IMG/VR virus record: IMGVR_UViG_3300017727_003535
Coordinates: 1 to 25,919 of that record
Reading direction: 5' to 3' (one strand)
From: a virus
Length of the DNA: 25,919 nt
Shown: piece after piece, positions 4,235 through 19,439 of the stretch
Layout of the letters: each line of letters starts with the position of its first letter
Numbering within the stretch: the first letter of the stretch is position 1
Notes under the pieces: model-generated
Databases searched by the model: none
Told to the model about the DNA's origin: nothing
What the model saw: only the letters and a program-made list of their open reading frames with translations
Position numbers and translations under genes: made by a program

Positions 4235-4254
4235 ATTAACAACGGAGAAGATGT

Positions 4255-4452: not shown

Positions 4453-4458
4453 TGAATT

Positions 4459-4543
4459 GCCCCTGTGATGGAATGGTAGACATAACGGACTTAAAATCCG
4501 TGGGCCATAGGCCGTGCGAGTTCGAATCTCGCTGGGGGCACCA
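4459..4543 (+). tRNA. tRNA-Leu (anticodon TAA)
   Basis: Class II tRNA with a long variable arm. Acceptor GCCCCTG/TGGGGGC (two G-U pairs), anticodon stem ACGGA/TCCGT with loop CTTAAAA, variable arm about 4502-4517, T arm GCGAG-TTCGAAT-CTCGC, discriminator A at 4540 and an encoded CCA at 4541-4543. It reads UUA, the favoured leucine codon of the AT-rich genes here. Confidence 0.93.
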
Positions 4544-4570
4544 CCAATTTTAACTTAGGAGAAAGATAAT

Positions 4571-4951
4571 ATGTACGCATCAAATTTTGAATTAGTAGAA
4601 AACTTTATGAGAAGCATGAAGCAAGAAGTCAAAGATAGGCCCAGTTGGCCCAAAGGAGAGACTCAAGACCTCCGGGTAGATTTGATTAGAGAAGAACTAA
4701 ATGAGCTAGAAGAAGCAATGTCAACAGGAACACTAGTAGATGTTGCAGACGCACTTACTGATATTTTGTATGTTACTTACGGTGCCGGCCACGCATTTGG
4801 TATTAATCTAGACAAATGCTTTGAAGAAGTGCAAAATTCCAATATGACTAAACTTGACGAATCAGGAAAGCCAGTGTATAATGATAAAGGTAAAGTTATA
4901 AAAGGTGCAAGATATACAGCACCAGATTTGGATAAAATATTATATGATTGA
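4571..4951 (+). CDS. mazG: MazG-like nucleotide pyrophosphohydrolase
   Basis: 126 residues of the all-alpha NTP-pyrophosphohydrolase (MazG/HisE-like) fold. The metal-binding signature is intact: E-E-L-N-E at 41-45 and D-V-A-D-A-L-T-D at 57-64. The C-terminal extension (K-V-I-K-G-A-R-Y-T-A-P-D-L, 108-120) is typical of the phage branch. Family members hydrolyse nucleoside triphosphates to monophosphate and pyrophosphate; marine phage versions were first proposed to act on ppGpp and later tested on dNTPs. Which applies here cannot be read from sequence. A TTAGGAGA ribosome binding site (4555-4562) precedes the ATG. The gene ends inside the start of the DUF59 gene (8-base overlap), so the two are co-translated. 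Confidence 0.88.
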   Translation: MYASNFELVENFMRSMKQEVKDRPSWPKGETQDLRVDLIREELNELEEAMSTGTLVDVADALTDILYVTYGAGHAFGINLDKCFEEVQNSNMTKLDESGKPVYNDKGKVIKGARYTAPDLDKILYD

Positions 4952-5348
4952 AACAACTGATGATATGATGAACTCTCCGGGTAGCCCGGCTGTAGACCCT
5001 CATCTATCTTGCGACTTAAAAGACATTGAAGACAACACCGAAGCAAAAATAAAATATATTGAAAAAGTTAAAGAAGCTCTACAACGAGTATACGACCCGG
5101 AGATATCAGTAGACATATACAACTTAGGTTTAGTTTACGATGTAAAAATTACAAAAGACAATGCGGTATGGGTGCTGATGAGTTTAACATCAGCATTCTG
5201 CCCAGCCGCAGACATAATACCTCAAGACATAATCCAAGAGGTATCTACTGTAGAAGGTATTACTAAATGTGAAGTTAGAATAACAATGACTCCACAATGG
5301 GGCAGAGAAATGATAGAGCCTAATATTAGAGATATGATGGGACTATAA
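4944..5348 (+). CDS. DUF59 / MIP18-family Fe-S cluster assembly protein (SufT/PaaD-like)
   Basis: 134 residues from the ATG at 4944, which overlaps the end of the MazG-like gene. The domain occupies about residues 38-132: D-P-E-I at 51-54, then D-I-Y-N-L-G-L-V-Y-D-V (57-67), a conserved cysteine in S-A-F-C-P-A-A-D (C86) and the closing strand V-R-I-T-M-T-P-Q-W (111-119). These are the hallmarks of the family that includes SufT, the N-terminal domain of HCF101 and the PaaD group, which help insert Fe-S clusters into client proteins. Residues before 38 are acidic and probably disordered. A phage copy may service phage Fe-S enzymes such as the radical SAM protein at 13001-13981; that link is inference. 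It converges tail-to-tail with the next gene, with a 6-base overlap. Confidence 0.85.
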   Translation: MIETTDDMMNSPGSPAVDPHLSCDLKDIEDNTEAKIKYIEKVKEALQRVYDPEISVDIYNLGLVYDVKITKDNAVWVLMSLTSAFCPAADIIPQDIIQEVSTVEGITKCEVRITMTPQWGREMIEPNIRDMMGL

Positions 5349-5594
5349 ACTAGTACCCGGTGGAGTAATTTTAACTTTGTCTTCTGGACCGCAATCAATA
5401 GTTGATACTTTGATACCGTGATTTGCTCCGTACATTAATTCTAAGTAGTAATATAAACCGGATGCAAAATCTGTAGGTCTGGTTTGCAAATCTTGTATAC
5501 ACTGTTGTCTAGAATCGTATAATTGATCAGTCGCGTAGAACGTTTGTTCTGTTCCGTTTGGAAACATTAAGAGAGCAAAAACTAACCATTTCAT
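5343..5594 (-). CDS. Small secreted two-cysteine protein, family member 2
   Basis: 83 residues with a short hydrophobic leader (residues 2-11), then L-Y-D-S-R-Q-Q-C (C33) and a second cysteine in V-S-T-I-D-C-G-P-E-D (C68), the same pattern as the products at 2681, 9080 and 15386. The leader is short with a single Lys, so it is a weak signal peptide or an anchor. It is the only minus-strand gene between 1 and 7183 and lies head-to-head with clpP across a 46-base gap. That gap contains TTGATC-N17-TAATAT pointing toward this gene, a possible promoter. Function unknown. Confidence 0.55.
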   Translation of the reverse strand: MKWLVFALLMFPNGTEQTFYATDQLYDSRQQCIQDLQTRPTDFASGLYYYLELMYGANHGIKVSTIDCGPEDKVKITPPGTSL

Positions 5595-5608
5595 ATAATA
5601 TTATTTAA

Positions 5609-5629
5609 TAATTGATTACCGATCAATTA
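5609..5629. repeat. Inverted repeat between divergent genes
   Basis: A perfect 8-bp inverted repeat, TAATTGAT (5609-5616) and ATCAATTA (5622-5629), around TACCG, in the gap between the divergent small secreted gene and clpP. It overlaps the possible minus-strand -35 element and ends 11 bases before the clpP ATG, so it could be an operator or an mRNA hairpin. Confidence 0.35.
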
Positions 5630-5640
5630 ATCCATACATA

Positions 5641-6264
5641 ATGGTTGACTTTTCTTTGTATAAAACGTACAATAAGAATATGAAAAATTTAGTCCCTATT
5701 GTTATAGAACAAACAAGTAAAGGCGAGAGAAGTTATGATATCTTTTCTCGTTTAATGAAAGATAGAATTATTGTAATGGATGGTGTAGTCGAAGACCATA
5801 TGTCGTCTGTTATGTGTGCTCAATTATTATTCTTAGAGTCACAAAAACCAGAACAAGATATTACAGTGTACATTAATTCGCCAGGCGGATTAGTTACAGC
5901 AGGTATGGCAATATACGATACCATGCAGTATATCAAATGTGATATTAGAACCATAGTTATAGGACAAGCCTGCTCAATGGGATCTGTGTTAGCATCGTCT
6001 GGGACCAAAGGCAAACGATTTGTGTTGCCAAACTCAAGACACATGATACACCAACCGCTAGGTGGTGCCAGAGGACAAGCAACTGATGTACAGATTCAAG
6101 CAGACGAATTGTTGCGTTGGAAGAAAGTCCTAACAGAAATTTATCACAAGCACACTGGACAAACACTAGAAAAATTAAAAGACGACATGGAACGAGATAA
6201 GTTTATGACTGCAAAAGAATCTGTTGAGTACGGATTAGCAGACGAAATTGTGGAGAAAAGATAA
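5641..6264 (+). CDS. clpP: ATP-dependent Clp protease proteolytic subunit
   Basis: 207 residues, normal length for ClpP. The serine protease triad is intact: Ser112 in G-Q-A-C-S-M-G-S, His137 in M-I-H-Q-P-L-G-G and Asp182 in L-K-D-D-M-E-R-D. The oxyanion segment S-P-G-G (80-83) and the handle region around T-G-Q (172-174) are also present. ClpP forms tetradecamers that degrade proteins unfolded by host ClpX or ClpA. No ClpX-like gene is in the window, so it would have to use a host unfoldase. The start at 5641 is taken for lack of a better one; no clear ribosome binding site precedes it, and an internal ATG lies at codon 14. The stop codon shares a base with the next ATG (TAATG at 6262-6266). 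Confidence 0.93.
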
Positions 6265-6452
6265 TGCCAATTCCAGAAAGAGTATTAATTCCGGCCGCAA
6301 AAGATCCAAGCAGGTTTCATTTTTATACAAGTCTTATCAAAAGTGTTGTGCGTTTAGCAGGATGTTTAGTAGCCGCGGTTACTGGATCAGTAGTAATGCT
6401 GGCAATTTTTCTTGCTGTTGCAGAGTTTATAGGAATTATAGAAGAGTTATAG
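6264..6452 (+). CDS. Small single-helix membrane protein
   Basis: 62 residues: a basic, Pro-rich N-terminus (P-I-P-E-R-V-L-I-P) and one long hydrophobic segment from about residue 27 to 58. The ATG overlaps the clpP stop codon by one base, so it is probably translated by termination-reinitiation. No homologue recognised. A membrane role, possibly modulating ClpP or unrelated to it, is inference from hydropathy and coupling only. Confidence 0.6.
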   Translation: MPIPERVLIPAAKDPSRFHFYTSLIKSVVRLAGCLVAAVTGSVVMLAIFLAVAEFIGIIEEL

Positions 6453-6460
6453 AGCTAAAG

Positions 6461-7183
6461 ATGGTTAAACCAATTAGGTTAGTTAAATCTAAAGCACGTT
6501 TAAAAGTCCAACTACCTAATCAACTAAAAAAATATACCCAGCCAGACAAAGACGAACTTGCACTGTTAGATGCATTTGCTGAGGTTGATCCTATATTTGA
6601 AGGTAACCCTGACAAGTTTGATGTGATAGGCACTCGAATAAAATGGCAGAAACACGTAGTCAGTTATGTAGACCAACCAGGATACTGGATGGAGTTTGGA
6701 GTAAGAGGTGGAACCTCAATAGGTTGGTTGCTAGAACAAAAGCCCGGACAGGAGATACACGGATTTGATAGCTGGGAAGGTCTTCCGGAGCAATGGAGTG
6801 TAATAGCAGAAACATTTGATAAAGGTGCTATGGCAGTACCAATGCCTAAATTTGATTCTAACGTTAAACTGTGGAAAGGTTGGTTCAATGATACAGTAGA
6901 GCCATGGTGTGCAAATCATCCTGGCAATATTGCATATCTACATATTGATTCTGATTTGTATTCAAGTGCAATATATGTTTTAAACACACTCAACAAAAGA
7001 ATAGTACCCGGCACTATTATAGTGTTCGATGAACTGGCAAACTTTAGACTATCAACTAAAATGTCTAACTGGCCCATGCATGAATGGAAAGCTCTCAACG
7101 AATGGCTCAAAGAATATAATAGAAAAGTAGAACCTATTACAAGATCCTGTATGTATCAAGCCGCAGTTCGTGTAGTTCAATAA
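6461..7183 (+). CDS. TylF/MycF-type (macrocin O-methyltransferase-like) methyltransferase
   Basis: 240 residues with the class I SAM-dependent methyltransferase layout of the TylF family: glycine motif M-E-F-G-V-R-G-G-T-S-I at 77-87, acidic strand G-F-D-S-W-E-G-L-P at 101-109, the family hallmark H-I-D-S-D-L-Y-S-S at 161-169 and V-F-D-E at 188-191, whose aspartates bind the metal and sugar hydroxyls in characterised relatives. Those relatives O-methylate deoxysugars. Together with the glycosyltransferase-like gene that converges on it (7187-8110) and two FkbM methyltransferases further on, it suggests glycan modification. The frame is open upstream inside the preceding gene; 6461 is the first sensible ATG after that gene's end. 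Confidence 0.8.
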   Translation: MVKPIRLVKSKARLKVQLPNQLKKYTQPDKDELALLDAFAEVDPIFEGNPDKFDVIGTRIKWQKHVVSYVDQPGYWMEFGVRGGTSIGWLLEQKPGQEIHGFDSWEGLPEQWSVIAETFDKGAMAVPMPKFDSNVKLWKGWFNDTVEPWCANHPGNIAYLHIDSDLYSSAIYVLNTLNKRIVPGTIIVFDELANFRLSTKMSNWPMHEWKALNEWLKEYNRKVEPITRSCMYQAAVRVVQ

Positions 7184-7186
7184 TTT

Positions 7187-8110
7187 TTATATTATCTGAA
7201 GTGATCGCTTAATGTGTTTCCAGCATTCACCGTTTTCTAATTCTTCAACGTTCCATTGACAGTGAGATATTTTTTGCATCCATTCTTTTCTATCGCTAAT
7301 ATATCTTTCATATTCAATATTATCTAAAGAGTGTTTACTAACCAACCAAGCCATGTTGCCTGAATCTAAAGCAATGTTAGGCACACCGGCCAACACAGCA
7401 TCAACAGCCGATCCGGATGAAAAAGAAACAACACAATAAGCATCTTTAAAATCTTCTTCTAGTGGTCTTAAGTTATCTGGAAGTTCGTTTTCTACAATCG
7501 TTAAGTTCTCAAACTCTAGTAACCTAGATGTTAATGCATCCATACCTTTACGTGGTAGTGGATGTGGTCTTACTATTATAGGTCTTGTTGTACGTATTCT
7601 AATTTCTTTAACAGTATTGTAACACCATTCAAAAATATCTGTTCCTCGTAGACTTGCATCTCCAGGATTCTGCATCATGATAACAATGTTTTCTCCGTCT
7701 ACTTTCCATTCAGTATTAATGTCGTACCCTGTGTCTTTAAATACTTGAAGATAACGGTTAGGATCCATGTGTTCAAATCCCCATTCTGTTGTGTCCCAAA
7801 GAAATCCGTTTACTCCTACTCTTAAGTATTGATGGTTTATGCCTCGAACTCCTCTACCAATAACAGGAGTTTCTAACTGTACATACTTTTTAAAATTTTG
7901 AGCTATTTGTTTTTTAATAGTGTGATGAGGAGCACCTCGCCATTCTTTCCAACTGCCATACATTACAGCAGTATCAAAGTCTTCAGCATCCGGAACACCT
8001 TTTACAACAACAGCTTGATCTCCTACTACCTCTACACCTTTAGCAAATTCTAATAGTTTGTTTGAATAAACATCTCGATGTGCGGAATCTATAGCAATAG
8101 CAACTTTCAT
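7187..8110 (-). CDS. Glycosyltransferase-like (GT-B fold / capsule biosynthesis-type) protein
   Basis: 307 residues. The C-terminal half has the pattern of nucleotide-sugar-using GT-B or capsular-polysaccharide proteins: I-I-V-R-P-H-P-L-P at 178-186 and S-F-S-S-G-S-A-V-D-A-V-L-A-G-V-P at 229-244, the site where such enzymes hold the diphosphate, then a strand with the motif N-I-A-L-D-S-G. The N-terminal half has a Rossmann-like start (M-K-V-A-I-A-I-D-S). Related proteins occur in phages and in capsule loci. The donor and acceptor cannot be inferred. It is the last gene of a minus-strand run beginning at 8797 and converges on the TylF-type methyltransferase with only 3 bases between stops. Confidence 0.6.
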   Translation of the reverse strand: MKVAIAIDSAHRDVYSNKLLEFAKGVEVVGDQAVVVKGVPDAEDFDTAVMYGSWKEWRGAPHHTIKKQIAQNFKKYVQLETPVIGRGVRGINHQYLRVGVNGFLWDTTEWGFEHMDPNRYLQVFKDTGYDINTEWKVDGENIVIMMQNPGDASLRGTDIFEWCYNTVKEIRIRTTRPIIVRPHPLPRKGMDALTSRLLEFENLTIVENELPDNLRPLEEDFKDAYCVVSFSSGSAVDAVLAGVPNIALDSGNMAWLVSKHSLDNIEYERYISDRKEWMQKISHCQWNVEELENGECWKHIKRSLQII

Positions 8111-8114
8111 ATCA

Positions 8115-8453
8115 CTATTTACATTGCAAACAGGTCACCCCAAATTCTTTTTCTAAATATAACATCAATTCAGTTTTAAATTTAATCTCGTCTTCAACTT
8201 GTTTTTTACGAATTTTTCTTTCCACCAACTCTTCTTGTACAAGGTTTCTTCTTTTTTTAATAGTGATGTACGATAGTTGATGTATTAGTTCTTCAATGTG
8301 TAGCTTAATATCAATTAACTCTCGGTTCTGCATAAAGACCTGGAAATGTAATTGACTGTGTTCGTTTACGAAGTATTCATTAGGGTCAGATGATTTCACA
8401 TGACCACAGCTAGCCAACAGCATGAGTATAACAATAATAAACATTTTACCCAT
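8115..8453 (-). CDS. Small lipoprotein with coiled-coil body and C-terminal CxxC
   Basis: 112 residues. The N-terminus is a lipoprotein signal: hydrophobic I-I-V-I-L-M-L-L-A-S followed by the lipobox L-L-A-S-C with the acylated cysteine at residue 16. Residues about 40-100 are a charged heptad-like helix rich in Glu, Lys, Arg and Leu, and the protein ends C-L-Q-C-K. Outer-membrane or periplasmic anchoring is inferred. A lipoprotein next to small membrane and basic proteins recalls spanin/lysis cassettes, but the proline-rich character of outer spanins is absent, so I leave the function open. An in-frame ATG three codons later is an alternative start. Confidence 0.6.
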   Translation of the reverse strand: MGKMFIIVILMLLASCGHVKSSDPNEYFVNEHSQLHFQVFMQNRELIDIKLHIEELIHQLSYITIKKRRNLVQEELVERKIRKKQVEDEIKFKTELMLYLEKEFGVTCLQCK

Positions 8454-8466
8454 GTGTTGGTTGCTT

Positions 8467-8670
8467 CTATTTTCTTTTGGTAGGTGCTTTAATCTTCATT
8501 TTTTTCTTTTGTCCTTGCCCCGACAAATACTTAGGAGTCTTAGCTTTAATCTTAGCTTTTGGTTTTACCAGCATCTCTTCTGTTAGTACTAATACCTTTT
8601 CCTTCTCCGGAAGATATGAATTTACAACAGAGTTGACGATAATATTCCATACGTTCTTTAAAGACTTCAT
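8467..8670 (-). CDS. Small lysine-rich basic protein
   Basis: 67 residues. The first half is a mixed helix; the second half (about 34-67) is almost all Lys, Ala, Pro and Gly (K-P-K-A-K-I-K-A-K-T-P-K and K-K-K-M-K-I-K-A-P-T-K-R-K), resembling nucleic-acid-binding tails of histone-like proteins. It lies between a 39-residue membrane protein and a lipoprotein in one minus-strand run with gaps of 7-13 bases. The opposite strand also has an open frame here, but that is a shadow of the low-complexity Lys codons. Function unknown. Confidence 0.6.
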   Translation of the reverse strand: MKSLKNVWNIIVNSVVNSYLPEKEKVLVLTEEMLVKPKAKIKAKTPKYLSGQGQKKKMKIKAPTKRK

Positions 8671-8677
8671 GTTACAC

Positions 8678-8797
8678 CTATTTCTTTTTCTTATTAAACC
8701 AATTTAACGGATTTACTCTATCTGCTAAATTTTCTACTTTTTCGTTGATCCACCATCCTGCGATAAAACCAACAACAAATCCTATTGTTATAAACAT
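8678..8797 (-). CDS. 39-residue membrane protein
   Basis: A short gene that size filters miss: ATG at 8797, stop TAG at 8680-8678, with a strong AGGAG ribosome binding site five bases upstream of the start (AAAAGGAGATACT). The product starts MFITIGFVVGFIAGWW, a transmembrane helix, followed by an amphipathic acidic and basic segment and a C-terminal N-P-L-N-W-F-N-K-K-K-K. The positive tail predicts N-out, C-in topology. It heads the minus-strand run 8797-7187 and has a late-promoter-like octamer 17 bases upstream. Function unknown. Confidence 0.7.
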   Translation of the reverse strand: MFITIGFVVGFIAGWWINEKVENLADRVNPLNWFNKKKK

Positions 8798-8814
8798 AGT
8801 ATCTCCTTTTCTTA

Positions 8815-8822
8815 TACTTATC
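8815..8822 (-). promoter_or_regulatory. Late-promoter-like octamer GATAAGTA
   Basis: On the minus strand GATAAGTA (preceded by A) lies 17 bases before the ATG of the 39-residue membrane gene. The same A-GATAAGTA is found ahead of the genes starting at 18874 and 19610. It differs from the T4-type late box TATAAATA by T to G at position 1 and A to G at position 6. Confidence 0.4.
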
Positions 8823-8831
8823 TGATTTTAG

Positions 8832-8860
8832 TTGACGAAAATTGGAAATAGTACTATATT
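8832..8860 (+). promoter_or_regulatory. sigma70-type promoter giving a leaderless lipoprotein mRNA
   Basis: TTGACG (8832-8837), a 17-base spacer and TATATT (8855-8860). The ATG at 8867 begins seven bases after the -10 box, where transcription would start, and there is no Shine-Dalgarno sequence. A TATAAATA late box (8860-8867) overlaps the start codon and cannot serve this ATG in the usual geometry. Confidence 0.55.
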
Positions 8861-8866
8861 ATAAAT

Positions 8867-9079
8867 ATGATTATGAAAACAGTTATAACTTTATTAACAG
8901 CAACATTCTTATTAGTAGGTTGCAGTGGACACTTGAATACACCAGCAGTTAGCTTTGGTAAGAAGTGTGCTGAAACAAACGATGGGCAAATTGCTTACAG
9001 CTATGTTTGGTTGTATAGTAAGAACGAAGGCCTAAAAGCTAACAAAGAAAACTGTAACTTAATAGCCAATAAAAAGTAA
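8867..9079 (+). CDS. Small lipoprotein
   Basis: 70 residues with a clear lipoprotein signal: M-K-T-V-I-T-L-L-T-A-T-F and lipobox L-L-V-G-C, the acylated Cys at residue 19. The mature part has two more cysteines (C-A-E-T and E-N-C-N-L) that could form a disulfide, and a Y-S-Y-V-W-L-Y-S stretch. The start could be 8867 or the ATG at 8873; the promoter position favours a leaderless message from 8867. It is transcribed against its neighbours and ends at the stop codon of the minus-strand gene. Small surface lipoproteins in phages are often exclusion or lysis factors, but nothing in the sequence fixes that. Confidence 0.7.
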   Translation: MIMKTVITLLTATFLLVGCSGHLNTPAVSFGKKCAETNDGQIAYSYVWLYSKNEGLKANKENCNLIANKK

Positions 9080-9337
9080 TTAGGTATCAGTTCCTGGTTC
9101 TATCTTATAGGATACATCGCGATTGTCATTCGTGCATTCTGCATGAACCCAGTCGTATAGATATTTTTGTTGAATTATAAAATCTTGCACAACAACATAT
9201 CCGTTGTCGTTATTTTTCTTAGTTAACACAGCCTTGCAATCGTTAAGTGTGTTAAAAGTTAATGCAGAAGTAAATTCGTGATGACCATATAAAGTACCGT
9301 TTCCTATTAGGTATGCAACTATTATTATTTTAAACAT
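9080..9337 (-). CDS. Small secreted two-cysteine protein, family member 3
   Basis: 85 residues from the ATG at 9337. The frame is open 26 codons further upstream, but this start lies one base after the stop of the FkbM gene, and the product then begins with a hydrophobic leader (M-F-K-I-I-I-V-A-Y-L-I-G). Cysteines occur in F-N-T-L-N-D-C-K-A-V-L (C34) and W-V-H-A-E-C-T-N-D (C68), matching the arrangement of the products at 2681, 5343 and 15386. Export and a single disulfide are inferred. Function unknown. Confidence 0.55.
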   Translation of the reverse strand: MFKIIIVAYLIGNGTLYGHHEFTSALTFNTLNDCKAVLTKKNNDNGYVVVQDFIIQQKYLYDWVHAECTNDNRDVSYKIEPGTDT

Positions 9338-9338
9338 T

Positions 9339-9956
9339 TTATTTGTAATACAATACGTCGTATTGTCTGTTAGGTTCTGGATGTTCTGCAATAATTTCGT
9401 ATTTAGAAAAACCAATATTGCTCATGTATGCATTCATCTCATCAAAGCTAGGCAATAATTTATTAACTTTATCAATGTTTACTTCATTGATAACATAGTT
9501 TGCTCTTTGAAATATATCAATTGATCCTTGTATAATTTTTATTTCAGCACCTTGCACATCTTGTTTAATAAGATCGTATCTAGCATCAGTACCAACAACA
9601 GACGCAAGTGTTTTCATTTCTCGTTGTTCGCTATGCTCATACCCGCCAAAAATGTTAGCACCTTTTGAGTATATAGGTTTTACTTTGCCATTGGGTTTAA
9701 TTCTATGGTTAAGGTACATTGTTGTTGTTTTGTTTGTGTCACCAAGTACTTCAATGTAATGTTCGTTTGCAACAAGTTCTAAATTTTTAGAATGCTTTTG
9801 TCCTGCTTCAATACAAGTATAATGTGCGTCAGGCCAGATATTTTTACAGTTAATTGTCCAAAAGCCATTCCATGCACCGATATCTAAAATCTTTTTAGGA
9901 GTAAAGCCTTTATCTTTTTTTAAAACAGCATCTAAGTATTGATACATAGGTTCCAT
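9339..9956 (-). CDS. FkbM-family methyltransferase (first copy)
   Basis: 205 residues. SAM-binding glycine motif L-D-I-G-A-W-N-G at 24-31, an acidic residue closing strand 2 (C-I-E-A, 48-51) and the FkbM hallmark D-L-I-K-Q-D-V-Q-G-A-E at 128-138 followed by I-I-Q-G. FkbM-type enzymes O-methylate hydroxyls of sugars or polyketides and are common in phage and capsule or LPS gene clusters. Here it directly follows the oxygenase-like gene (1-base gap, 9957), as the distal member of the 12954-9080 run. The acceptor is unknown. It shares only the family core with the second FkbM gene at 13974-14576. Confidence 0.8.
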   Translation of the reverse strand: MEPMYQYLDAVLKKDKGFTPKKILDIGAWNGFWTINCKNIWPDAHYTCIEAGQKHSKNLELVANEHYIEVLGDTNKTTTMYLNHRIKPNGKVKPIYSKGANIFGGYEHSEQREMKTLASVVGTDARYDLIKQDVQGAEIKIIQGSIDIFQRANYVINEVNIDKVNKLLPSFDEMNAYMSNIGFSKYEIIAEHPEPNRQYDVLYYK

Positions 9957-9957
9957 A

Positions 9958-10740
9958 TTAAAACAGTTCTACTCCACCTTGGTGTTCATCAGGATTATAT
10001 AATCTGTGTGATTGGTTTGGTTTACAATATTTTTCAGTGTCTTCTAAATATCGAATACCGTTATACATTGTTTCTTGATCAATCCATTTCATTTCTATAA
10101 GTTCATCAACAAACTTATCGTAATCTATATCATCTATAGAAACATCCAACGAAACAATAGCACGAAGCTCTGCTGTGTTATTTCTTACCCAGTGCCATGC
10201 GTGTGTGTTCAACACAATTGGTTTTGCCATATTATACTCATGGCATTTGTGTTCGTGTTCCCATGGTGGGAATTGATTTTTTCCATCGTCAACTCCTGCA
10301 GGTATTCTTGTTGTTCTATCAATATCGTTATTCCATTCCCAATACGATGAACCAACCCAAGCCTTGTCAATGTCTTTTGGCATAGCAATAGGAACATTTA
10401 CAGCGGCCGCTCTGTCTCGGTCTCTATGACATCTAATATGTCTGTTCTGTTTTTGTTCAAGTATACAAATCTTGTTGATGTATTTGGCCCATGGTGTGTC
10501 GTCCATGAGTTTTAAGAATCGTTCATTGTGTTCTGGATTATCTAGATCCGGATAATGTTTACCAGTTTTTGGATCAGCATCGTAATGATGAAACGGAATC
10601 CTCCATATAGATCCTTCGTCTTTTTGTTTTTGTTTCCCGGCGACTCTAGCATTAATAATATCCATACCAAGTTTAGCCCAAGCTTCAGTCCAACCTTCTG
10701 GTGGAGTTATAATTGTAATGTTTGATTTCATTTTATCCAT
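9958..10740 (-). CDS. 2OG-Fe(II) oxygenase-like protein A (tandem paralogue)
   Basis: 260 residues, the longest of three tandem paralogues. The iron site is H-R-D at 105-107 (in C-H-R-D-R-D-R) and H183 in N-T-H-A-W-H-W-V, with R193 eight to ten residues later in E-L-R-A-I-V-S-L-D-V as the probable 2-oxoglutarate carboxylate ligand. V-N-V-P-I just after HxD marks the next beta strand. The layout matches the Asp/Asn beta-hydroxylase-like class. A C-terminal extension of about 50 residues, ending G-G-V-E-L-F, is absent from paralogues B and C. It overlaps paralogue B by 13 bases, so the three are translated in sequence. Substrate unknown; a small molecule, sugar or protein side chain are all possible. 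Confidence 0.7.
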   Translation of the reverse strand: MDKMKSNITIITPPEGWTEAWAKLGMDIINARVAGKQKQKDEGSIWRIPFHHYDADPKTGKHYPDLDNPEHNERFLKLMDDTPWAKYINKICILEQKQNRHIRCHRDRDRAAAVNVPIAMPKDIDKAWVGSSYWEWNNDIDRTTRIPAGVDDGKNQFPPWEHEHKCHEYNMAKPIVLNTHAWHWVRNNTAELRAIVSLDVSIDDIDYDKFVDELIEMKWIDQETMYNGIRYLEDTEKYCKPNQSHRLYNPDEHQGGVELF

Positions 10741-11399
10741 CCGTAGTATTTAAGTTTGTCACACATAGCGTCGTAAGAAATATTAGAGCAATCAATTGAA
10801 AGCTGGCTCCTTGATTCCTGCGATAGGTTTAAAACTGTATGCCACGATCGTGTGTTAATCATATGACAACCGTTTATTTTAAATTCTGTTAACTCTTTAA
10901 TAACCCTGTCTTCTATAGCATTTCTTTTTTCATCCCAACTACCGTCTGCTTTACAAGTTTCATACAGTTGATATTCCGCATCAGATGTTTTTATATTGTG
11001 CATTAATAGTTGCGATTGTTTGGTAATGTGAATAGGAAAGTTTATAGCATAAGATCTATTCCTGTCCATGTGCAAAGGCAAAGAAGAATAAGGTCCAAAC
11101 GTGAATAGTTTTATTTCAGTCACCTCAGAACGAAAAAAATCTCCAAACTCATCATCTATAGAAGTGTTCAGCCCACTGGTAATAATATTTTCATCCCACC
11201 CTTTGTTGTTACTGTACAACACGTGTCTTTCAAACTGACCAGTTTGACTTCGTTCTCCAGTGATAGGATTGTGACCTCTAATAGTTTCTTTCTCAACTTT
11301 TTGTACAACAACTTGTTTGTGTAGTACTGATTGACCAAGATTAGTTAATGCATCAACTAACTTGTTTGAAAATGTTATGTGTGTTGCATTTACAGCCAT
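10728..11399 (-). CDS. 2OG-Fe(II) oxygenase-like protein B (tandem paralogue)
   Basis: 223 residues. Iron ligands H110 and D112 in L-P-L-H-M-D-R-N-R, H187 in N-T-R-S-W-H-T-V, and a 2-oxoglutarate-binding Arg at 197 in E-S-R-S-Q-L-S-I-D. Both motif blocks align with paralogues A and C (HxDR-R, then N-T-x-x-W-H, then R-x-x-x-S-x-D), so the three arose by duplication. The N-terminal 90 residues differ strongly from A and C, suggesting a different partner or substrate contact surface. Its start overlaps the end of paralogue C by 10 bases. Hydroxylase activity is inferred from the intact triad. Confidence 0.7.
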   Translation of the reverse strand: MAVNATHITFSNKLVDALTNLGQSVLHKQVVVQKVEKETIRGHNPITGERSQTGQFERHVLYSNNKGWDENIITSGLNTSIDDEFGDFFRSEVTEIKLFTFGPYSSLPLHMDRNRSYAINFPIHITKQSQLLMHNIKTSDAEYQLYETCKADGSWDEKRNAIEDRVIKELTEFKINGCHMINTRSWHTVLNLSQESRSQLSIDCSNISYDAMCDKLKYYGWIK

Positions 11400-12037
11400 C
11401 CGGCGTCTCTAAAAATTTCAATAGTTTCTTCGTATGGAGTATAGTTAATGTCATAGGACAATATACTTCTTACATTTTCAAATATACCGTTGGATAGTTT
11501 ACGTATAGGTTTAGTAGCATCGTAGTTGTGATCAACCCAGTGCCAAGATCGTGTATTGAGTATCACAGGTTTCCCTAATTCGTATTTCTCACCTTCGTCG
11601 TCTAGATCAAATGTTGGATTCTGATCGTTTGGGTGCATCGTTAACCACTTTGGATCAATTGTGTTGTTTAACTCGTGTCTGTAAACTCCTAGGTGTGTAC
11701 CTGCAGGTATAACAACAGGAATGTTCAATGCACACTCTCTATCTCTGTCAATGTGTACTTTTTGAAATCTGCCATGCTTTAGATTCAACATCATTGCACC
11801 AGTTGTTATTTTAAGGATAGATTCTGGTATCCTAGATTGTATACTGTCATACAATTTGTTATGCTCAGGATTATCACATATGGCCTTCCCACCTTTGTGT
11901 ATACGTATTCTAAAGATAGAACCTTGATTAACAATTTCTTGTTTACCAGATTCAGCATCAGCTAACAGTGTCTTACACAAGGTTGTAATATCGTTCAACA
12001 AATCTGTTGGTATGTTTAATGCAGTATAGTTTTTCAT
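11390..12037 (-). CDS. 2OG-Fe(II) oxygenase-like protein C (tandem paralogue)
   Basis: 215 residues. Iron triad H95, D97 (V-H-I-D-R-D-R) and H166 (N-T-R-S-W-H-W-V), with R190 in E-N-V-R-S-I-L-S-Y-D as the cosubstrate ligand. It shares with paralogue A the N-terminal block G-S-I-[WF]-R-I and D-N-P-E-H-N, so A and C are closer to each other than to B. Its start codon overlaps the stop of the aminotransferase-like gene by 4 bases, making the order aminotransferase, C, B, A, FkbM a tightly coupled run. Possible role: successive hydroxylations on a common scaffold; the sequence does not show which. Confidence 0.7.
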   Translation of the reverse strand: MKNYTALNIPTDLLNDITTLCKTLLADAESGKQEIVNQGSIFRIRIHKGGKAICDNPEHNKLYDSIQSRIPESILKITTGAMMLNLKHGRFQKVHIDRDRECALNIPVVIPAGTHLGVYRHELNNTIDPKWLTMHPNDQNPTFDLDDEGEKYELGKPVILNTRSWHWVDHNYDATKPIRKLSNGIFENVRSILSYDINYTPYEETIEIFRDAGWL

Positions 12038-12954
12038 TTTTTAAACTCTTTGCTTTCATATTTATTGAGAGATTTATCTAGTCCACGCACATCTACCTTA
12101 CCGTCAATTAAAAATCTTAATGGTGTCCTAATTCCTACTAATTTATTATCCTGTGTTTTTGCAACATGAAATGCATTGGATTCTTTTAAGTTCCAATCCT
12201 TACAAACTTTGCTGTATATGTCTTTATATGTGTTCCACAAATAGTCTGCACCGTATTCTTTTATTCTATGCAATCCTAATACACAATCTGATCTGTTAAC
12301 GTAGTCGTGCTCGTTCATTATAGTTACAGGTCCGTTTTGTCGTTTTCGAGTCCATCGTACTCCAATTCTGTTTCCTCCCATACCAAATCCTTTTGACATA
12401 GAAACAAAAACAGATTTAATAACAGGATTGCTAACATCTAACTCAAAATTTCTACAGCAACCAAACCATGCTCCGTCTATGTGTATACTAATATTTTTTT
12501 GTTCTGCAACTTTTAATAACTGCGGAAAGTCTGAATGAAAATCTGTTGTTATGCAAGACGGATAAGAAATGATAACGTGTTCGCCTTCTATCAATTCGTC
12601 GGCACTTTTAATTTTTTTTATATCGCCGTTAGTCAATCTATCGTGATATTTGTATTCTCCCTCATACACTGCAATATTGTTTTTGTATTTCCAATGTAGA
12701 TCATCCATTGCATGAGTTGTTCCTAGTATAACATCTTTAATTGGAAATGTATTCAAGCCATGGTATTTTATATGCTGATGAGAATTAATCCACTGCTCAA
12801 ACTCATTAATAAAATCCTGCACCAATGTTGTGCTAGTAACAGCAGTCATATCAACTGTTCCAGTATTACGTATGAATGTAGATAGCTGTATTGGACGTTG
12901 CTTGGTAAAGTTTAGCCAATCTTTATTGTTAATGTCATATGCGTTCATAGTCAT
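12034..12954 (-). CDS. PLP-dependent aminotransferase-fold (fold type I) protein
   Basis: 306 residues. The PLP site is readable: I-H-I-D-G-A-W at 157-163 gives the Asp160 that pairs with the pyridine nitrogen, and S-V-F-V-S-M-S-K-G-F-G at 181-191 gives the Schiff-base Lys188, followed by G-N-R-I-G with the phosphate-binding Arg. The length is short for fold type I (usually 350-420), with a reduced N-terminal domain, so either a minimal decarboxylase/aminotransferase or a specialised relative. A second ATG two codons in (12948) is an alternative start. An AATAAGTA box lies eight bases upstream of 12954. It heads the run of three oxygenases and an FkbM methyltransferase. Reaction unknown; amino-sugar or amino-acid transamination are the obvious options. 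Confidence 0.65.
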   Translation of the reverse strand: MTMNAYDINNKDWLNFTKQRPIQLSTFIRNTGTVDMTAVTSTTLVQDFINEFEQWINSHQHIKYHGLNTFPIKDVILGTTHAMDDLHWKYKNNIAVYEGEYKYHDRLTNGDIKKIKSADELIEGEHVIISYPSCITTDFHSDFPQLLKVAEQKNISIHIDGAWFGCCRNFELDVSNPVIKSVFVSMSKGFGMGGNRIGVRWTRKRQNGPVTIMNEHDYVNRSDCVLGLHRIKEYGADYLWNTYKDIYSKVCKDWNLKESNAFHVAKTQDNKLVGIRTPLRFLIDGKVDVRGLDKSLNKYESKEFKK

Positions 12955-12962
12955 TACACATA

Positions 12963-12970
12963 CTTATTAT
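12963..12970 (-). promoter_or_regulatory. Late-promoter-like octamer AATAAGTA
   Basis: On the minus strand AATAAGTA lies eight bases before the ATG at 12954 in the 46-base gap after the radical SAM gene. It shares the ATAAGTA core with the boxes at 8815, 18880 and 19616, and would start a transcript two or three bases before the aminotransferase-like gene. Confidence 0.35.
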
Positions 12971-13000
12971 TAAAAATACTGATTACTTAACTTTTGAATA

Positions 13001-13981
13001 TTAAACAAACTGCTGGTTGGCTTTGCGTATGTCTGCTGTGTTGGAGTCGTTCCATTTGAACTTGGCTCTGCTACAGGTATTGCACATCATGTTTTTCTTC
13101 TTGTCGTTGTAGGTAGTATCGTAAATCAATTTGTGGTACCGGGAAACATTTTCCCAAACACCACTAACACCAATATCAAACACATTACCAAAGTCTGTCT
13201 GTCCTGTAGCATCATCACAGCATAAAACTACCTGCCCGTCTACTAGCACTTCAAGTGTACGCAGTATCTTTCCATGCACCATGTCACAGCCTTTTACAAA
13301 TTGTTTTTCAGATATCTTAAAATCTAGCCCATCTTCATCAAACTTGTTGTACACCAATCTGTTCTCTAACCAGTTAGTTTTCTTTTTTACTTTGCCGAGT
13401 GTTAGACTTTGTATTTCCTGGATCACAGGAGTGTAGTGTTTTTTTTCAGGATCTTGTATCTTGTGCTTAACACCAATATTCATCTTCTCACTAATGGAAG
13501 GATACTTGTCCTGTATCATCATCAGTCTTGCTTTTGTAACGTCCCAGTCCAGATCCATCCACTCTCTAATTTCTTCTTTGTTGTATCCTATAATGGATAT
13601 GTTGATCCTGTCTATGGTCTCTATGTATTTTTCTATTAGGTCACATTTCTTCTCACCGAAGCTCACAGCGTTTGTGGTCAGGCTTATCTTGAGACCGTGA
13701 CTCTGGCATATTTCAAAAATAAGTTCAAGGCTAGGGCACACCAACGGATCTGAATACCTCCATGGTTTTATTATTGTTTTGCCAGGATCTATGTTGTGCT
13801 TCTTTATACCGTCTGCAAAATCTTCAAGCAATAATTCAACTTGTTCGTCTGACATCCTCTTGCCTCGGTATTCCTTGTCTTTTTCTAGATAGGTGTATGG
13901 GCAACAGAAACATTTTGCATTGCAAAGATTGATAGGTTCAAACGCAAGTTCAATTGGTGTGGGCAGTGTAAGATCAAACAT
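13001..13981 (-). CDS. Radical SAM protein with SPASM-like C-terminal cysteines
   Basis: 326 residues. The 4Fe-4S cluster motif C-N-A-K-C-F-C-C gives CX3CX2C with C20, C24 and C27. K-P-W-R-Y-S-D-P-L occupies the usual G-E-P position. C-terminal cysteines cluster in G-C-D-M-V-H-G, V-V-L-C-C-D-D and C-N-T-C-S-R-A, with the strand and turn pattern F-G-N-V characteristic of SPASM/twitch domains that bind auxiliary clusters. SPASM proteins modify peptides (RiPPs, anaerobic sulfatase maturation) or act on sugars and cofactors. I see no obvious precursor peptide beside it. It overlaps the second FkbM gene by 8 bases, and both are visibly higher in GC than the genes on either side, suggesting joint acquisition. 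Confidence 0.85.
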   Translation of the reverse strand: MFDLTLPTPIELAFEPINLCNAKCFCCPYTYLEKDKEYRGKRMSDEQVELLLEDFADGIKKHNIDPGKTIIKPWRYSDPLVCPSLELIFEICQSHGLKISLTTNAVSFGEKKCDLIEKYIETIDRINISIIGYNKEEIREWMDLDWDVTKARLMMIQDKYPSISEKMNIGVKHKIQDPEKKHYTPVIQEIQSLTLGKVKKKTNWLENRLVYNKFDEDGLDFKISEKQFVKGCDMVHGKILRTLEVLVDGQVVLCCDDATGQTDFGNVFDIGVSGVWENVSRYHKLIYDTTYNDKKKNMMCNTCSRAKFKWNDSNTADIRKANQQFV

Positions 13982-14576
13982 GAGTCAATACCCAATCATC
14001 CATTCCGTCATAGTCCACAATCTTATAATTATTTTTAGTAAGCCACTCGAGTGCTTGGAATTCCAACCCCTTGTTAGTTTGCTCTACCACTTTGTTCTGT
14101 TCTATCACAATAAGAGGTTTACATCTTGATAACGTTTCTGTTGATCCTTGTAGGACTGCCAGCTCGTCTCCCTCAACATCGATCTTGATGTAATCCACAT
14201 CAGTAAAATTAAAACTGTCTAGCGTCCTAAGATCAACTGTTGTTTTTTCTTTATTGGTCATCACCACTCCTGTGGATGCTCCCCAGTAATCTGTTTGTCC
14301 GTTTTCTTCCCCCAATGCCACTTGATGGAAGTTGACTCGCTCCTTATCAAGCAGTCTCCACCTTAACCAATTCCTCATATCAAACGCCTCAACTTGCTCA
14401 AAGTCTCGCAACAGCTCGTGTGTGAAATTACCTACTTTACATCCAACATCAATAGCTCTCCTGAACTGAAGGAGATGTTTTCGTGATATGCTGTAGGTAT
14501 GAGCACACTGACCATTGCAATGGTATATCCTGTCACGTGCGGCTGTATCTAGGCTGTTCTGTCGATAGTCTGTCAT
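13974..14576 (-). CDS. FkbM-family methyltransferase (second copy)
   Basis: 200 residues. Glycine motif A-I-D-V-G-C-K-V-G-N at 41-50 and the FkbM signature D-Y-I-K-I-D-V-E-G-D-E at 128-138, followed by L-A-V-L-Q-G. Predicted to transfer a methyl group from SAM to a sugar or similar hydroxyl. It starts at an ATGA overlap with the stop of the upstream lipoprotein gene and overlaps the radical SAM gene by 8 bases, so lipoprotein, FkbM and radical SAM are co-translated. Its higher GC sets it apart from the first FkbM copy at 9339-9956, so the two are probably separate acquisitions rather than a local duplication. Confidence 0.82.
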   Translation of the reverse strand: MTDYRQNSLDTAARDRIYHCNGQCAHTYSISRKHLLQFRRAIDVGCKVGNFTHELLRDFEQVEAFDMRNWLRWRLLDKERVNFHQVALGEENGQTDYWGASTGVVMTNKEKTTVDLRTLDSFNFTDVDYIKIDVEGDELAVLQGSTETLSRCKPLIVIEQNKVVEQTNKGLEFQALEWLTKNNYKIVDYDGMDDWVLTHV

Positions 14577-14827
14577 TCACTATCCATTTCTTCAAACTCT
14601 TTAGTAATATCTTCTTCTTGGTGTTTATTTTTTATTTTTGGACAACTGTCTGGAGCAAACATACAACCAAGTACTCTGCCAATTGATCCGTCATAGATAT
14701 TTTGGTTTGGTTGTTGTTTAGTAATGGCTTCTTTTTTACCAGCACACCCAATTACAGAAAACAAAACTATTAAAAGAAATAATACAATAGTAAGTCGAGT
14801 CATCAGATTTTCAAAGCTGTTTTTCAT
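14573..14827 (-). CDS. Small lipoprotein
   Basis: 84 residues from 14827, or 76 from the ATG at 14803. A hydrophobic stretch (T-I-V-L-F-L-L-I-V-L-F-S) runs into the lipobox V-I-G-C-A-G, so a lipid-anchored envelope protein is likely. The mature part has a C-x6-C pair (G-C-M-F-A-P-D-S-C) and an acidic tail. It is transcribed from a minus-strand promoter that shares its -35 region with the divergent DUF2061 gene and is coupled to the FkbM gene by ATGA. Function unknown. Confidence 0.65.
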   Translation of the reverse strand: MKNSFENLMTRLTIVLFLLIVLFSVIGCAGKKEAITKQQPNQNIYDGSIGRVLGCMFAPDSCPKIKNKHQEEDITKEFEEMDSE

Positions 14828-14837
14828 AATTGATATA

Positions 14838-14866
14838 TATTTACTACAAATTTAACCGATTGACAA
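14838..14866 (-). promoter_or_regulatory. sigma70-type promoter of the lipoprotein-FkbM-radical SAM run
   Basis: On the minus strand TTGTCA (14866-14861), a 17-base spacer and TAAATA (14843-14838). The start codon at 14827 is ten bases beyond the -10 box, leaving a leader of about three bases. The -35 hexamer overlaps by five bases the -35 of the oppositely directed promoter. Confidence 0.5.
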
Positions 14867-14888
14867 ATCTACAGAGAAAGTATAATAT
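14860..14888 (+). promoter_or_regulatory. sigma70-type promoter of the DUF2061 gene, leaderless
   Basis: TTGACA (14860-14865), a 17-base spacer and TAATAT (14883-14888). TATAAT at 14881-14886 with a 15-base spacer is an alternative register. The ATG at 14895 starts seven bases after the -10 box, at the expected +1. Confidence 0.6.
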
Positions 14889-14894
14889 TAAGTT

Positions 14895-15170
14895 ATGATA
14901 ACAGAATTCACACATGGAATACAAGGAGCCGTAAAAGGTCTTATTAAAAGATCAAGTTTGCTCCTTGCATTGATATACACTTTAGGTCATATATGTATTG
15001 CTATGATGGTAGTAAGCTCTATGACAGGAGCAAGTCTATGGGAAGCAGGAGCAGTAGCATTAGTAGAACCTTCTATTAATGGTGTATGGTTTTATGTGTT
15101 ACATAGATGGTGGGCATCAAAAACCGTGCATAATGCTAAAATTAAGCAGAGTAAAAAGAGAACAAAGTAG
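14895..15170 (+). CDS. DUF2061-family membrane protein
   Basis: 91 residues. After a basic amphipathic start there are two membrane segments (about 22-43 and 47-68), then W-F-Y-V-L-H-R-W-W at 64-72 and a basic tail. The pattern K-R-S-S-L-L-L-A-L-I-Y-T then a second helix with E-P-S-I-N, and a closing Y-x-L-H-x-x-W, fits the DUF2061 family of small inner-membrane proteins of unknown function. The gene has its own promoter upstream and a hairpin terminator downstream, so it is an independent unit inserted between a minus-strand operon and tRNA-Thr. Confidence 0.65.
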   Translation: MITEFTHGIQGAVKGLIKRSSLLLALIYTLGHICIAMMVVSSMTGASLWEAGAVALVEPSINGVWFYVLHRWWASKTVHNAKIKQSKKRTK

Positions 15171-15201
15171 ATTACTTGATTAAGGTTTACCAGCACTGTA
15201 C

Positions 15202-15231
15202 GCCGCTTAAAACACGTTTAAACCGGCTTTT
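15202..15231 (+). terminator. Rho-independent-type terminator after the DUF2061 gene
   Basis: Stem GCCG (15202-15205) with CGGC (15224-15227), continued by TTAAA (15207-15211) with TTTAA (15217-15221) around the loop ACACG, followed by TTTTAT. It ends the DUF2061 transcript 30 bases before tRNA-Thr. Confidence 0.6.
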
Positions 15232-15260
15232 ATATGCACATATAATTGCTAATATACAAG

Positions 15261-15336
15261 GCCCCTTTAGCTCAGTTGGTAGAGCAACTGATTTGTAATC
15301 AGTAGGTCGTCTGTTCGAATCGGACAAGGGGCACCA
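15261..15336 (+). tRNA. tRNA-Thr (anticodon TGT)
   Basis: Full cloverleaf: acceptor GCCCCTT/AAGGGGC, D stem GCTC/GAGC, anticodon stem ACTGA/TCAGT with loop TTTGTAA, T loop TTCGAAT, discriminator A at 15333 and an encoded CCA at 15334-15336. It reads ACA. A TATAAT at 15241-15246 may be its -10 box, but no good -35 is seen. No gene follows on the same strand within the next few kilobases. Confidence 0.95.
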
Positions 15337-15385
15337 GACCAAATAATACCAAAATAACCATATTCACCAAAAATACCAAACAAGA

Positions 15386-15574
15386 TTATGTGCCTACTGA
15401 TCCAACAGGCTTACATTGATATTCTACCGTATCCCATTTTCCGTCTATAGGTATATTAGAATACACAGGCAACATTTGGTCACATTCTATTTCAGTATCA
15501 AACCATTGAACGTCTTGCTCAATGCAGGTTGATCCTAAACACACAGTTAACAGAATATGCCAAACTATTTCCAT
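15386..15574 (-). CDS. Small secreted two-cysteine protein, family member 4
   Basis: 62 residues with a short hydrophobic leader (M-E-I-V-W-H-I-L-L-T-V-C-L). Cysteines lie in W-F-D-T-E-I-E-C-D (C31) and V-E-Y-Q-C-K-P-V-G (C55), the pattern of the other family members at 2681, 5343 and 9080; two extra cysteines lie in and just after the leader. A strong GGGGAGG ribosome binding site sits six bases before the ATG, and that ATG overlaps the stop of a possible 24-codon gene (TAATG). It is the distal gene of the Rieske-type oxygenase transcript. Function unknown. Confidence 0.6.
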   Translation of the reverse strand: MEIVWHILLTVCLGSTCIEQDVQWFDTEIECDQMLPVYSNIPIDGKWDTVEYQCKPVGSVGT

Positions 15575-15648
15575 TAATTCCTCCCCATGTGTTTAGGACC
15601 GTGATCACGACTAATCCAATCTAATAATCTATACCAATTCTTACGCAC
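15574..15648 (-). CDS. Possible 24-residue basic peptide with GTG start
   Basis: A 25-codon frame bridges the gap between the oxygenase and the small secreted gene: the GTG at 15648 overlaps the last codons of the oxygenase gene, and the TAA overlaps the next ATG (TAATG). The product would be basic and tryptophan-containing (R-K-N-W-Y-R-L-L-D-W-I at 2-12). No ribosome binding site precedes the GTG. The end-to-end coupling is the only support. Confidence 0.3.
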   Translation of the reverse strand: MRKNWYRLLDWISRDHGPKHMGRN

Positions 15649-16699
15649 GGTATGGATCTAGATTTAGATACTTCCCCCATTCGGTATAATAGTGTCGCAT
15701 ACCGACTTCGTCGTGTATAGTTCCGTTCTCGTGTCTACCATGCAGTATACGTCTGTTCTCTGTGCCTTCACGCATTGTTGTTCCTTGCCCAGCCACTCCT
15801 ATTAGGTCTTCGTGTAGGTTACGTCCAAACGGTCCCCATATTGAGTTGTGATGGTTAACACGAGTTAATCTTTCTTCTGGTGTGTCTTTGCGTAGTCCAT
15901 ATCCTCTAAACTCTATTAGTACTTTGTTTGGTCCTAGTGGAGTTACTGAGTCTGAACGATATGCACTTCCTCGTAGGTTAAAATTGAATCCTGGAAATAG
16001 GTCAACCATGTACCACTGGTTGGGCGGCAGGTTAGGAAAAGATAATTCTCCGCGGTCTTCAAAACCGTCATACTCAGTATAGTTAACAGTAAAGCTAGAC
16101 ACGTTGACATGACCATTATCAAAAGGAACATTTTTTCTAGCGAAGTACTCATCATTGAATCCCGACACACGATTGAAGTAGTGCATGAAGTCATGATAAA
16201 ATTCTGAGTTGGTATCATGCCACAACTTGTAATTGGTATTGATGACTGCTTTGTGATAATGAAATACTTCTAGTTCTTCTGTGTCAATAGCATCAGCAAT
16301 ACAATCAAATGCACCTGCTGTCCATTCATCTACAGACTGCGTAGGATTAGGATCAAGTGTTACCCATACCATTCCTCCGTGCTTTACTTCACAGTGTAGT
16401 TTAGGTTCAACTGTTACAACAGGTGCTTTAAATGTACCGCTTGGTTGACTAACTCCATAGTTTCGCCATGCATGAACACGTTTGCCAGTGTTGTATGCAA
16501 GTACGTTTACACCTGCTATCTGTGAAGTTCTAAAGTCTCCTTGTTTATACATTTCACTAATGTGACATATAGGTACCCATACCTTTGAAAAGATACGTTC
16601 TTGTTCTTGTGCAAATATTTCTGGGCAGTTGTAGGCTGTGCTACTAATTGATTCTACTACTGGCTTCTTTAACCAGTTGGCGTGATTACGTGGTGGCAT
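15641..16699 (-). CDS. Ring-hydroxylating-oxygenase alpha-subunit-like protein lacking the Rieske cluster ligands
   Basis: 352 residues. The N-terminus (Y-N-C-P-E-I-F-A-Q-E, then F-S-K-V-W-V-P-I-C-H and G-D-F-R-T) is typical of Rieske non-heme iron oxygenase alpha subunits, and the catalytic domain keeps the facial triad: H169 and H173 in S-E-F-Y-H-D-F-M-H, Asp298 in L-H-E-D-L-I-G, and the bridging Asp162. But the 2Fe-2S motif (CxH...CxxH, normally about residues 80-125) is gone: R-V-H-A-W-R-N-Y-G (74-82) runs within about 20 residues into H-C-E-V-K-H-G-G-M-V-W, so both cluster loops are deleted. Electron delivery would need another route, or the protein no longer oxygenates. AAGGAG precedes the start. 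Confidence 0.75.
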   Translation of the reverse strand: MPPRNHANWLKKPVVESISSTAYNCPEIFAQEQERIFSKVWVPICHISEMYKQGDFRTSQIAGVNVLAYNTGKRVHAWRNYGVSQPSGTFKAPVVTVEPKLHCEVKHGGMVWVTLDPNPTQSVDEWTAGAFDCIADAIDTEELEVFHYHKAVINTNYKLWHDTNSEFYHDFMHYFNRVSGFNDEYFARKNVPFDNGHVNVSSFTVNYTEYDGFEDRGELSFPNLPPNQWYMVDLFPGFNFNLRGSAYRSDSVTPLGPNKVLIEFRGYGLRKDTPEERLTRVNHHNSIWGPFGRNLHEDLIGVAGQGTTMREGTENRRILHGRHENGTIHDEVGMRHYYTEWGKYLNLDPYRA

Positions 16700-19184: not shown

Positions 19185-19439
19185 TTATCCTAGTGAGTGT
19201 CCAGTACCGTTATAACCTGTGTCTTCAACGTACTTGAGTAATTCGTTGTATCCACCGATCTTTTCTTCACGTACTGTAATTTGTGGAAATGTTCGTGCTG
19301 TTGGGAACTTTTCAAAAAGTTGTTCGCGAGTAAAGTCTACGTCTAATTGTTTATAGACAAATTCAAACTGATTCGTTTCACAAAACTTCTTAGCCCTGTC
19401 ACAGAACGGACAAGCTGGTTTTCCGTATATTTCTATCAT
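19185..19439 (-). CDS. grx: Glutaredoxin
   Basis: 84 residues with the thioredoxin fold: active site C-P-F-C at 10-13 following I-E-I-Y-G-K-P-A, the cis-proline strand T-F-P-Q-I-T-V at 50-56, and the glutathione-site G-G-Y-N-E-L. It would re-reduce the NrdA active-site disulfide via the C-terminal C-E-A-C of NrdA, using glutathione. It sits downstream of nrdA and nrdB in the same minus-strand run, separated by one small gene. AGGA precedes the ATG. Confidence 0.92.
   Translation of the reverse strand: MIEIYGKPACPFCDRAKKFCETNQFEFVYKQLDVDFTREQLFEKFPTARTFPQITVREEKIGGYNELLKYVEDTGYNGTGHSLG

Follow-up and report, generated by a model that had tools for sequence, protein, structure and literature searches.

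A travelling FkbM–radical SAM gene pair with a lineage-specific extension suggests a sugar-tailoring cassette in a marine T4-like phage

Pelagimyophages carry O-chain genes together with radical S-adenosylmethionine (SAM) cassettes in a host-recognition hypervariable region, an arrangement that has been read as host O-chain modification (PMC7029224). Environmental T4-like viral genomes are also rich in iron-sulfur (Fe-S) genes (PMC5332604), and the radical SAM enzyme BtrN of butirosin biosynthesis oxidizes a hydroxyl group of an aminocyclitol by two electrons, the proposed acceptor being the enzyme's auxiliary cluster (PMC9012708). Here we describe a minus-strand row of tailoring-type genes (9080–14827) in a 25.9-kb virus fragment from IMG/VR (IMGVR_UViG_3300017727_003535, positions 1 to 25,919; hereafter the window). 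NrdA of the window is ~72% identical to that of T4-like cyanophages and of the pelagimyophage isolate Mosig EXVC030M, which places the window in a marine T4-like phage; NrdA was not found in four related contigs, all of them fragments, and no inference is drawn from this. The window shares with the pelagimyophage islands (PMC7029224) a T4-like marine phage background, a variable region, glycosyltransferases, radical SAM cassettes, Asp/Arg-hydroxylase-like proteins and a distant relative of its pyridoxal phosphate (PLP) protein. In contrast, the Mosig island adjoins tail fibres and differs in gene set, whereas that of the window is flanked by primase/DnaB and ClpP, a placement observed in the near-identical contig L002 (IMG/VR 3300017755_003289), and, unlike Mosig, the window has three orphan 2-oxoglutarate (2OG) oxygenase paralogues and an FkbM methyltransferase–radical SAM pair. 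Our preferred reading, to which we assign a probability of about 0.47, is that a hypervariable region houses a sugar- or glycan-tailoring cassette, made up of a travelling FkbM–radical SAM module and a lineage-specific extension of PLP, 2OG and second FkbM (FkbM2) genes.

The radical SAM family (13001–13981 in the window, minus strand) spans 31 IMG/VR viral loci at 40–100% identity, which group into 22 clusters at 95% identity or 10 at 70%. An FkbM gene overlaps the radical SAM start by 1–8 bp in 16 of the 29 testable loci; in the window this gene is FkbM1 (13974–14576, minus strand), which lies above the curated cut-off (PF05050, E 1e-15; TIGR01444, E 4e-14). Locus L003 also holds the pair, missed through a longer called radical SAM start, and the L017 contig breaks off within FkbM; with both counted, 12 of the 22 clusters have the pair. 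FkbM2 (9339–9956, minus strand; PF05050, E 3e-8, above the curated cut-offs of PF05050 and TIGR01444) has orthologues at 52–54% identity in L012 and L015, where they neighbour the pair. A family near the radical SAM gene in 12 loci is represented in the window by a glycosyltransferase-like gene (7187–8110, minus strand), although that assignment is weak (DUF6716, E 0.3), and a TylF-type O-methyltransferase gene (6461–7183, plus strand; Pfam E 2e-12) has counterparts adjoining the radical SAM gene in L004 and L006. The PLP and 2OG-A/B/C genes, in contrast, were found by viral-contig scans in one other contig only, L002, which matches window positions 3004–16699 at 99.75% identity, and a profile search of all retrieved loci gave no relative of the 2OG trio beyond the window and L002. 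These scans were pattern-based with insensitive single-protein queries, the FkbM2 scan having missed the relatives in L012 and L015; because relatives at about 50% identity escape, "private" means here that no close relative was found. As a distant-DNA query, the island had zero matches in 50,697 phage records. A different oxygenase-like family, with an HxE...H...R motif, lies near the radical SAM gene in 11 of the 22 loci examined, which suggests that radical SAM plus oxygenase is a recurring theme.

The original prediction had treated 9339–14576 as one pathway, a view that these neighbourhoods do not support, as only the FkbM1–radical SAM pair is conserved and, as far as the scan can resolve, the PLP and 2OG genes have a private distribution in IMG/VR. 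The genes are thus independent of one another only in part: the PLP and 2OG genes do not follow the radical SAM gene beyond L002, whereas FkbM1 and radical SAM stay together. Judged by these comparisons, the island is a conserved two-gene module with a lineage-specific extension and not one fixed pathway, and the proposal of an undescribed pathway survives in that form, probably for glycan tailoring, but not as a single route.

The radical SAM protein exceeds the Pfam cut-offs for both radical SAM (PF04055, E 1e-7) and SPASM (PF13186, E 1e-7). Its membership of the radical SAM superfamily is borne out by the CxxxCxxC cysteines C20, C24 and C27, which are invariant in all 31 members, while C-terminal C232, C254/C255, C300 and C303, invariant in the members covering them, correspond to a twitch with one auxiliary cluster. 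Only five C-terminal cysteines are present in 25 of the 31 members, with 6–7 in five others and one member truncated. The full SPASM motif has seven cysteines, CX9-15GX4C-gap-CX2CX5CX3C-gap-C (PMC6231123), and its CX5CX3C part falls outside the conserved set, despite the PF13186 match and the two auxiliary clusters that a SPASM domain would imply. Of the predicted radical SAM/SPASM assignment the first half therefore stands, and the tail, by its cysteine pattern, is twitch-type, equivalent to the first half of SPASM and not to full SPASM.

An AlphaFold model of this protein (predicted local distance difference test score, pLDDT, 77) had BtrN (PDB 4M7T) as its top VIA-align match (Z 16.8, root-mean-square deviation 3.2, 231 residues), and Foldseek ranked DesII, a deoxysugar enzyme, first. 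The sole match of the family profile to PDB sequences was again BtrN (E 3e-4), with both domains aligned, including the twitch. The two thus share a fold, CxxxCxxC plus a twitch with a matching CxxC end, and a profile match; they differ in that identity is 17% and the phage family is longer, with invariant motifs of its own (CNAKCFCCPY and PWRYSDPLV). By analogy, the phage enzyme would be a BtrN-like dehydrogenase of a sugar or cyclitol hydroxyl. Two scans of cellular genome contigs for relatives returned only a spurious 33-residue match, and thus gave no lead to a host origin. The family has so far been found here only in phages, and in T4-like phages of the ocean it moves together with an FkbM methyltransferase.

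The extension begins with a compact, 306-residue protein resembling fold-type-I PLP enzymes (12034–12954, minus strand). It falls below the Pfam cut-offs (Pyridoxal_deC, E 0.06; Aminotran_1_2, E 0.2), its class I/II aminotransferase score being 11.3 bits against a cut-off of 19.7, and a profile search of the PDB returned noise plus valine-pyruvate aminotransferase at E 0.12. Its motifs, D160-x-A and S185-x-S-K188-G-F-G...R-I-G, include the Asp and the Schiff-base Lys and recur in a weak pelagimyophage relative annotated "putative aminotransferase"; these motifs and this relative underlie its assignment as a putative PLP enzyme. Its predicted structure (pLDDT 44) was unusable and was left out of the fold search.

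Three putative Fe(II)/2OG oxygenases follow on the minus strand: 2OG-C (11390–12037; HxDRxR...NTRSWHWV...VRSILS), 2OG-B (10728–11399) and 2OG-A (9958–10740), tandem paralogues with 17–34% mutual identity. All three keep HxDRxR...NT(R/H)xWHxV...R, and the iron triad H110/D112/H187 (2OG-B numbering) is invariant in 3/3, as expected of Fe(II)/2OG oxygenases; the 2OG-binding Arg was read from the sequences as VRS/LRA/SRS, as MAFFT misaligned it in 2OG-C. Assignment to the Asp/Arg beta-hydroxylase family (PF05118) failed, with 2OG-A below the cut-off (E 0.0087, 16.4 versus 22.6 bits) and 2OG-B and 2OG-C without a match. A profile of the trio aligned with phage Asp/Arg-hydroxylase relatives at the motif residues (E 6.5e-4, at a probability of only 28%), and tblastn of each of the three against phages gave zero matches. 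This orphan trio is a source of unassigned chemistry. The predicted FkbM, PLP and 2OG families thus divide into two FkbM proteins above their cut-offs and PLP and 2OG proteins below theirs, and all appear to be tailoring-type enzymes, as had been proposed, with intact active-site motifs.

The surroundings of the radical SAM gene are rich in glycan genes. Neighbours across its loci include GT61, GT2 just under the cut-off, NAD epimerase/GDP-mannose dehydratase, a sugar C-methyltransferase-like protein (PF08484), CTP_transf_3, NTP_transferase, an asparagine-synthase-like protein and further FkbM. From this setting, the gene order, the motifs and the conserved pairing we infer a substrate, a sequence of steps, an acceptor and a purpose. 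The travelling module would consist of FkbM and the twitch radical SAM enzyme, and near it lie the glycosyltransferase-like and TylF genes. The BtrN-like enzyme would abstract hydrogen from a carbinol carbon in a sugar or cyclitol unit, and its auxiliary cluster would take the second electron, yielding a ketone. As the twitch radical SAM gene is followed by the PLP gene, an oxidise-then-aminate order is suggested, in which the PLP enzyme would transaminate the ketone; in butirosin biosynthesis, an aminotransferase acts on inosose intermediates. Hydroxylation of nearby carbons by the 2OG enzymes and O-methylation of hydroxyls by the FkbM enzymes may then follow, and the glycosyltransferase-like protein would attach the unit to an acceptor, the likeliest being a host surface polysaccharide (O-chain), so that receptor identity would be altered during infection. 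A full multi-step pathway in which radical oxidation and transamination are joined by as many as three hydroxylations and two O-methylations, leading to an unusual amino-, hydroxy- and O-methyl-substituted sugar or cyclitol that serves as a new glycan unit or as a secreted, possibly metal-binding small molecule, is improbable. The FkbM–radical SAM pair offers a concrete two-gene unit for testing phage remodelling of host surfaces.

Several observations weigh against a sugar-tailoring cassette. An adjacent FkbM gene is wanting in about half of the radical SAM loci, and, apart from L002, none of the other loci has the PLP and 2OG genes in its covered sequence, so that a common substrate is not required. 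The motifs of the PLP protein resemble those of class I/II aminotransferases and not those of DegT-type sugar aminotransferases, and peptides or amino acids are the classical substrates of Asp/Arg-hydroxylase-like 2OG enzymes. Structurally, the maturases ChlB (Z 16.6) and SuiB (Z 16.2) of ribosomally synthesized and post-translationally modified peptides (RiPPs) tie with BtrN in VIA-align. Finally, hypervariable phage regions are glycan-gene-rich anyway, which makes co-location suggestive and not proof.

The distribution of the PLP and 2OG genes, confined to the window and one near-identical contig, also fits a hotspot of independently acquired genes in one transcription unit, with no joint pathway and with the FkbM–radical SAM pair serving one function and the PLP and 2OG genes another. 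A 46-bp non-coding gap (12955–13000), the only sizeable break in the row, falls exactly between these two blocks, and the likeness to L002 ends precisely where an oxygenase gene (15641–16699, minus strand) starts, at 16699, with different gene content beyond. Set against this are the overlapping junctions inside each block, the FkbM2 orthologues adjoining the pair elsewhere and the recurrence of the HxE...H...R family, and we consider mere stacking unlikely, while giving it more weight than the other alternatives. Rather unlikely, in our judgement, is modification of a virion protein such as a tail fibre, or of a small peptide, by the radical SAM, 2OG and PLP enzymes. Such a role would suit the fold matches to the RiPP maturases ChlB, SuiB and SkfB (Z 14.8–16.6), the Asp/Arg-hydroxylase-like character of the 2OG enzymes and the presence of pelagimyophage PLP relatives in a cassette beside tail-fibre genes. 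However, CxxxCxxC begins at residue 20 of the radical SAM protein, which leaves no room for an N-terminal peptide-recognition domain, the tail is a twitch and the neighbours are sugar enzymes; no precursor peptide is evident in the row, whose small open reading frames (ORFs) are of lipoprotein or secreted types, although no dedicated search for a RiPP recognition element or precursor was run.

The original prediction had left open a small molecule, a surface glycan or a nucleotide as product; a glycan is favoured by the glycosyltransferase and nucleotide-sugar neighbours, while no positive evidence emerged for a nucleotide (DNA) or a free small molecule. A diffusible phage-made molecule, possibly metal-binding and tied to iron supply, would account for an enzyme mix made up of tailoring functions only and for the FTR1-type iron permease gene (3026–3628) in the block common to the window and L002, which also has a TonB receptor and an oxidoreductase; yet no scaffold maker (non-ribosomal peptide synthetase, polyketide synthase or siderophore synthetase) was seen in the window or scanned neighbours, and the iron genes may simply serve iron enzymes, so we hold this to be highly improbable. 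Radical SAM, PLP, 2OG and glycosyltransferase classes do occur in phage DNA hypermodification clusters, and further genes may be missing from a 25.9-kb fragment, but the window and the scanned neighbour families contain no hydroxymethylase, TET/JBP, deoxynucleoside monophosphate kinase or other DNA-modification gene, making hypermodification of DNA or nucleotides the least probable of these explanations. We retain the sugar- or glycan-tailoring cassette as the preferred reading.

In transcription order, all on the minus strand, the row comprises a small lipoprotein, FkbM1, radical SAM, PLP, 2OG-C, 2OG-B, 2OG-A, FkbM2 and a small secreted protein, which confirms the arrangement and positions originally predicted, as does the adjoining of the TylF and glycosyltransferase-like genes. 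The claim that nearly all junctions overlap by 4–13 bp holds for five of eight (lipoprotein/FkbM1, 4 bp; FkbM1/radical SAM, 8; PLP/2OG-C, 4; 2OG-C/2OG-B, 10; 2OG-B/2OG-A, 13) and not for the 46-bp radical SAM/PLP gap or two 1-bp gaps, 2OG-A/FkbM2 and FkbM2/secreted protein, the latter with ATG at 9337 as the start; an alternative TTG start at 9415 would give a 77-bp overlap with FkbM2. A search for the T4-type late promoter (TATAAATA) found a single site, not above chance. The first gene of the row (14573–14827; 84 residues, lipobox VIGC) has zero Pfam matches and a relative only in L002; with 8115–8453 and 8867–9079, it is one of three small lipobox proteins around the island that could be spanin-like. 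The small secreted protein (9080–9337, minus strand; 85 residues from ATG) was not retained as a candidate RiPP precursor, given its weak likeness (20–24% identity, with a common Cys/Gly pattern) to two other secreted minus-strand ORFs, 5343–5594 and 15386–15574, and the three are possibly one small phage family.

Among the loci closest to the window (L002 to L009), those that cover T4-type primase and helicase genes have the radical SAM gene downstream of them, and ClpP follows in L007 and L002. Radical SAM, ClpP, glutaredoxin and a PaaD-type Fe-S assembly protein co-occur in the window, as they do in the Fe-S-rich T4-like genomes (PMC5332604), although that work covers Fe-S gene sets and not the tailoring row. 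A MazG-like pyrophosphohydrolase gene and then the assembly protein gene (PaaD/MIP18-type) occupy 4571–5348 (plus strand), and glutaredoxin was called at 19185–19439 from its CPFC sequence; together they would equip an iron-heavy phage with Fe-S support. The FTR1-type permease (plus strand) has two REGxE motifs (Pfam E 5e-15) and zero matches in the 50,697 phage records. The product of 15641–16699 is like the alpha subunit of ring-hydroxylating oxygenases and 70% identical to a "methanesulfonate monooxygenase" of SAR116 phage HMO-2011; by eye, it is without the CxH...CxxH Rieske cluster motif and keeps a YHDFMH stretch. A conserved pelagimyophage cassette by tail fibres (L039–L049, L035) encodes fatty acid-desaturase-like, PLP, TauD, methylase, flavin mononucleotide reductase, N-acetyltransferase and Asp/Arg hydroxylase proteins and seems to be another pathway that awaits description; it shows that the combination of PLP, 2OG and methyltransferase genes recurs, with members that differ between cassettes. 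Downstream of the FkbM–radical SAM pair in L009, a protein with a RuBisCO-large-chain domain (5983–7170; Pfam E 2e-36) is encoded next to nucleotidyltransferases, and L009 also encodes a CTP_transf_3/RraA fusion (1179–2489).

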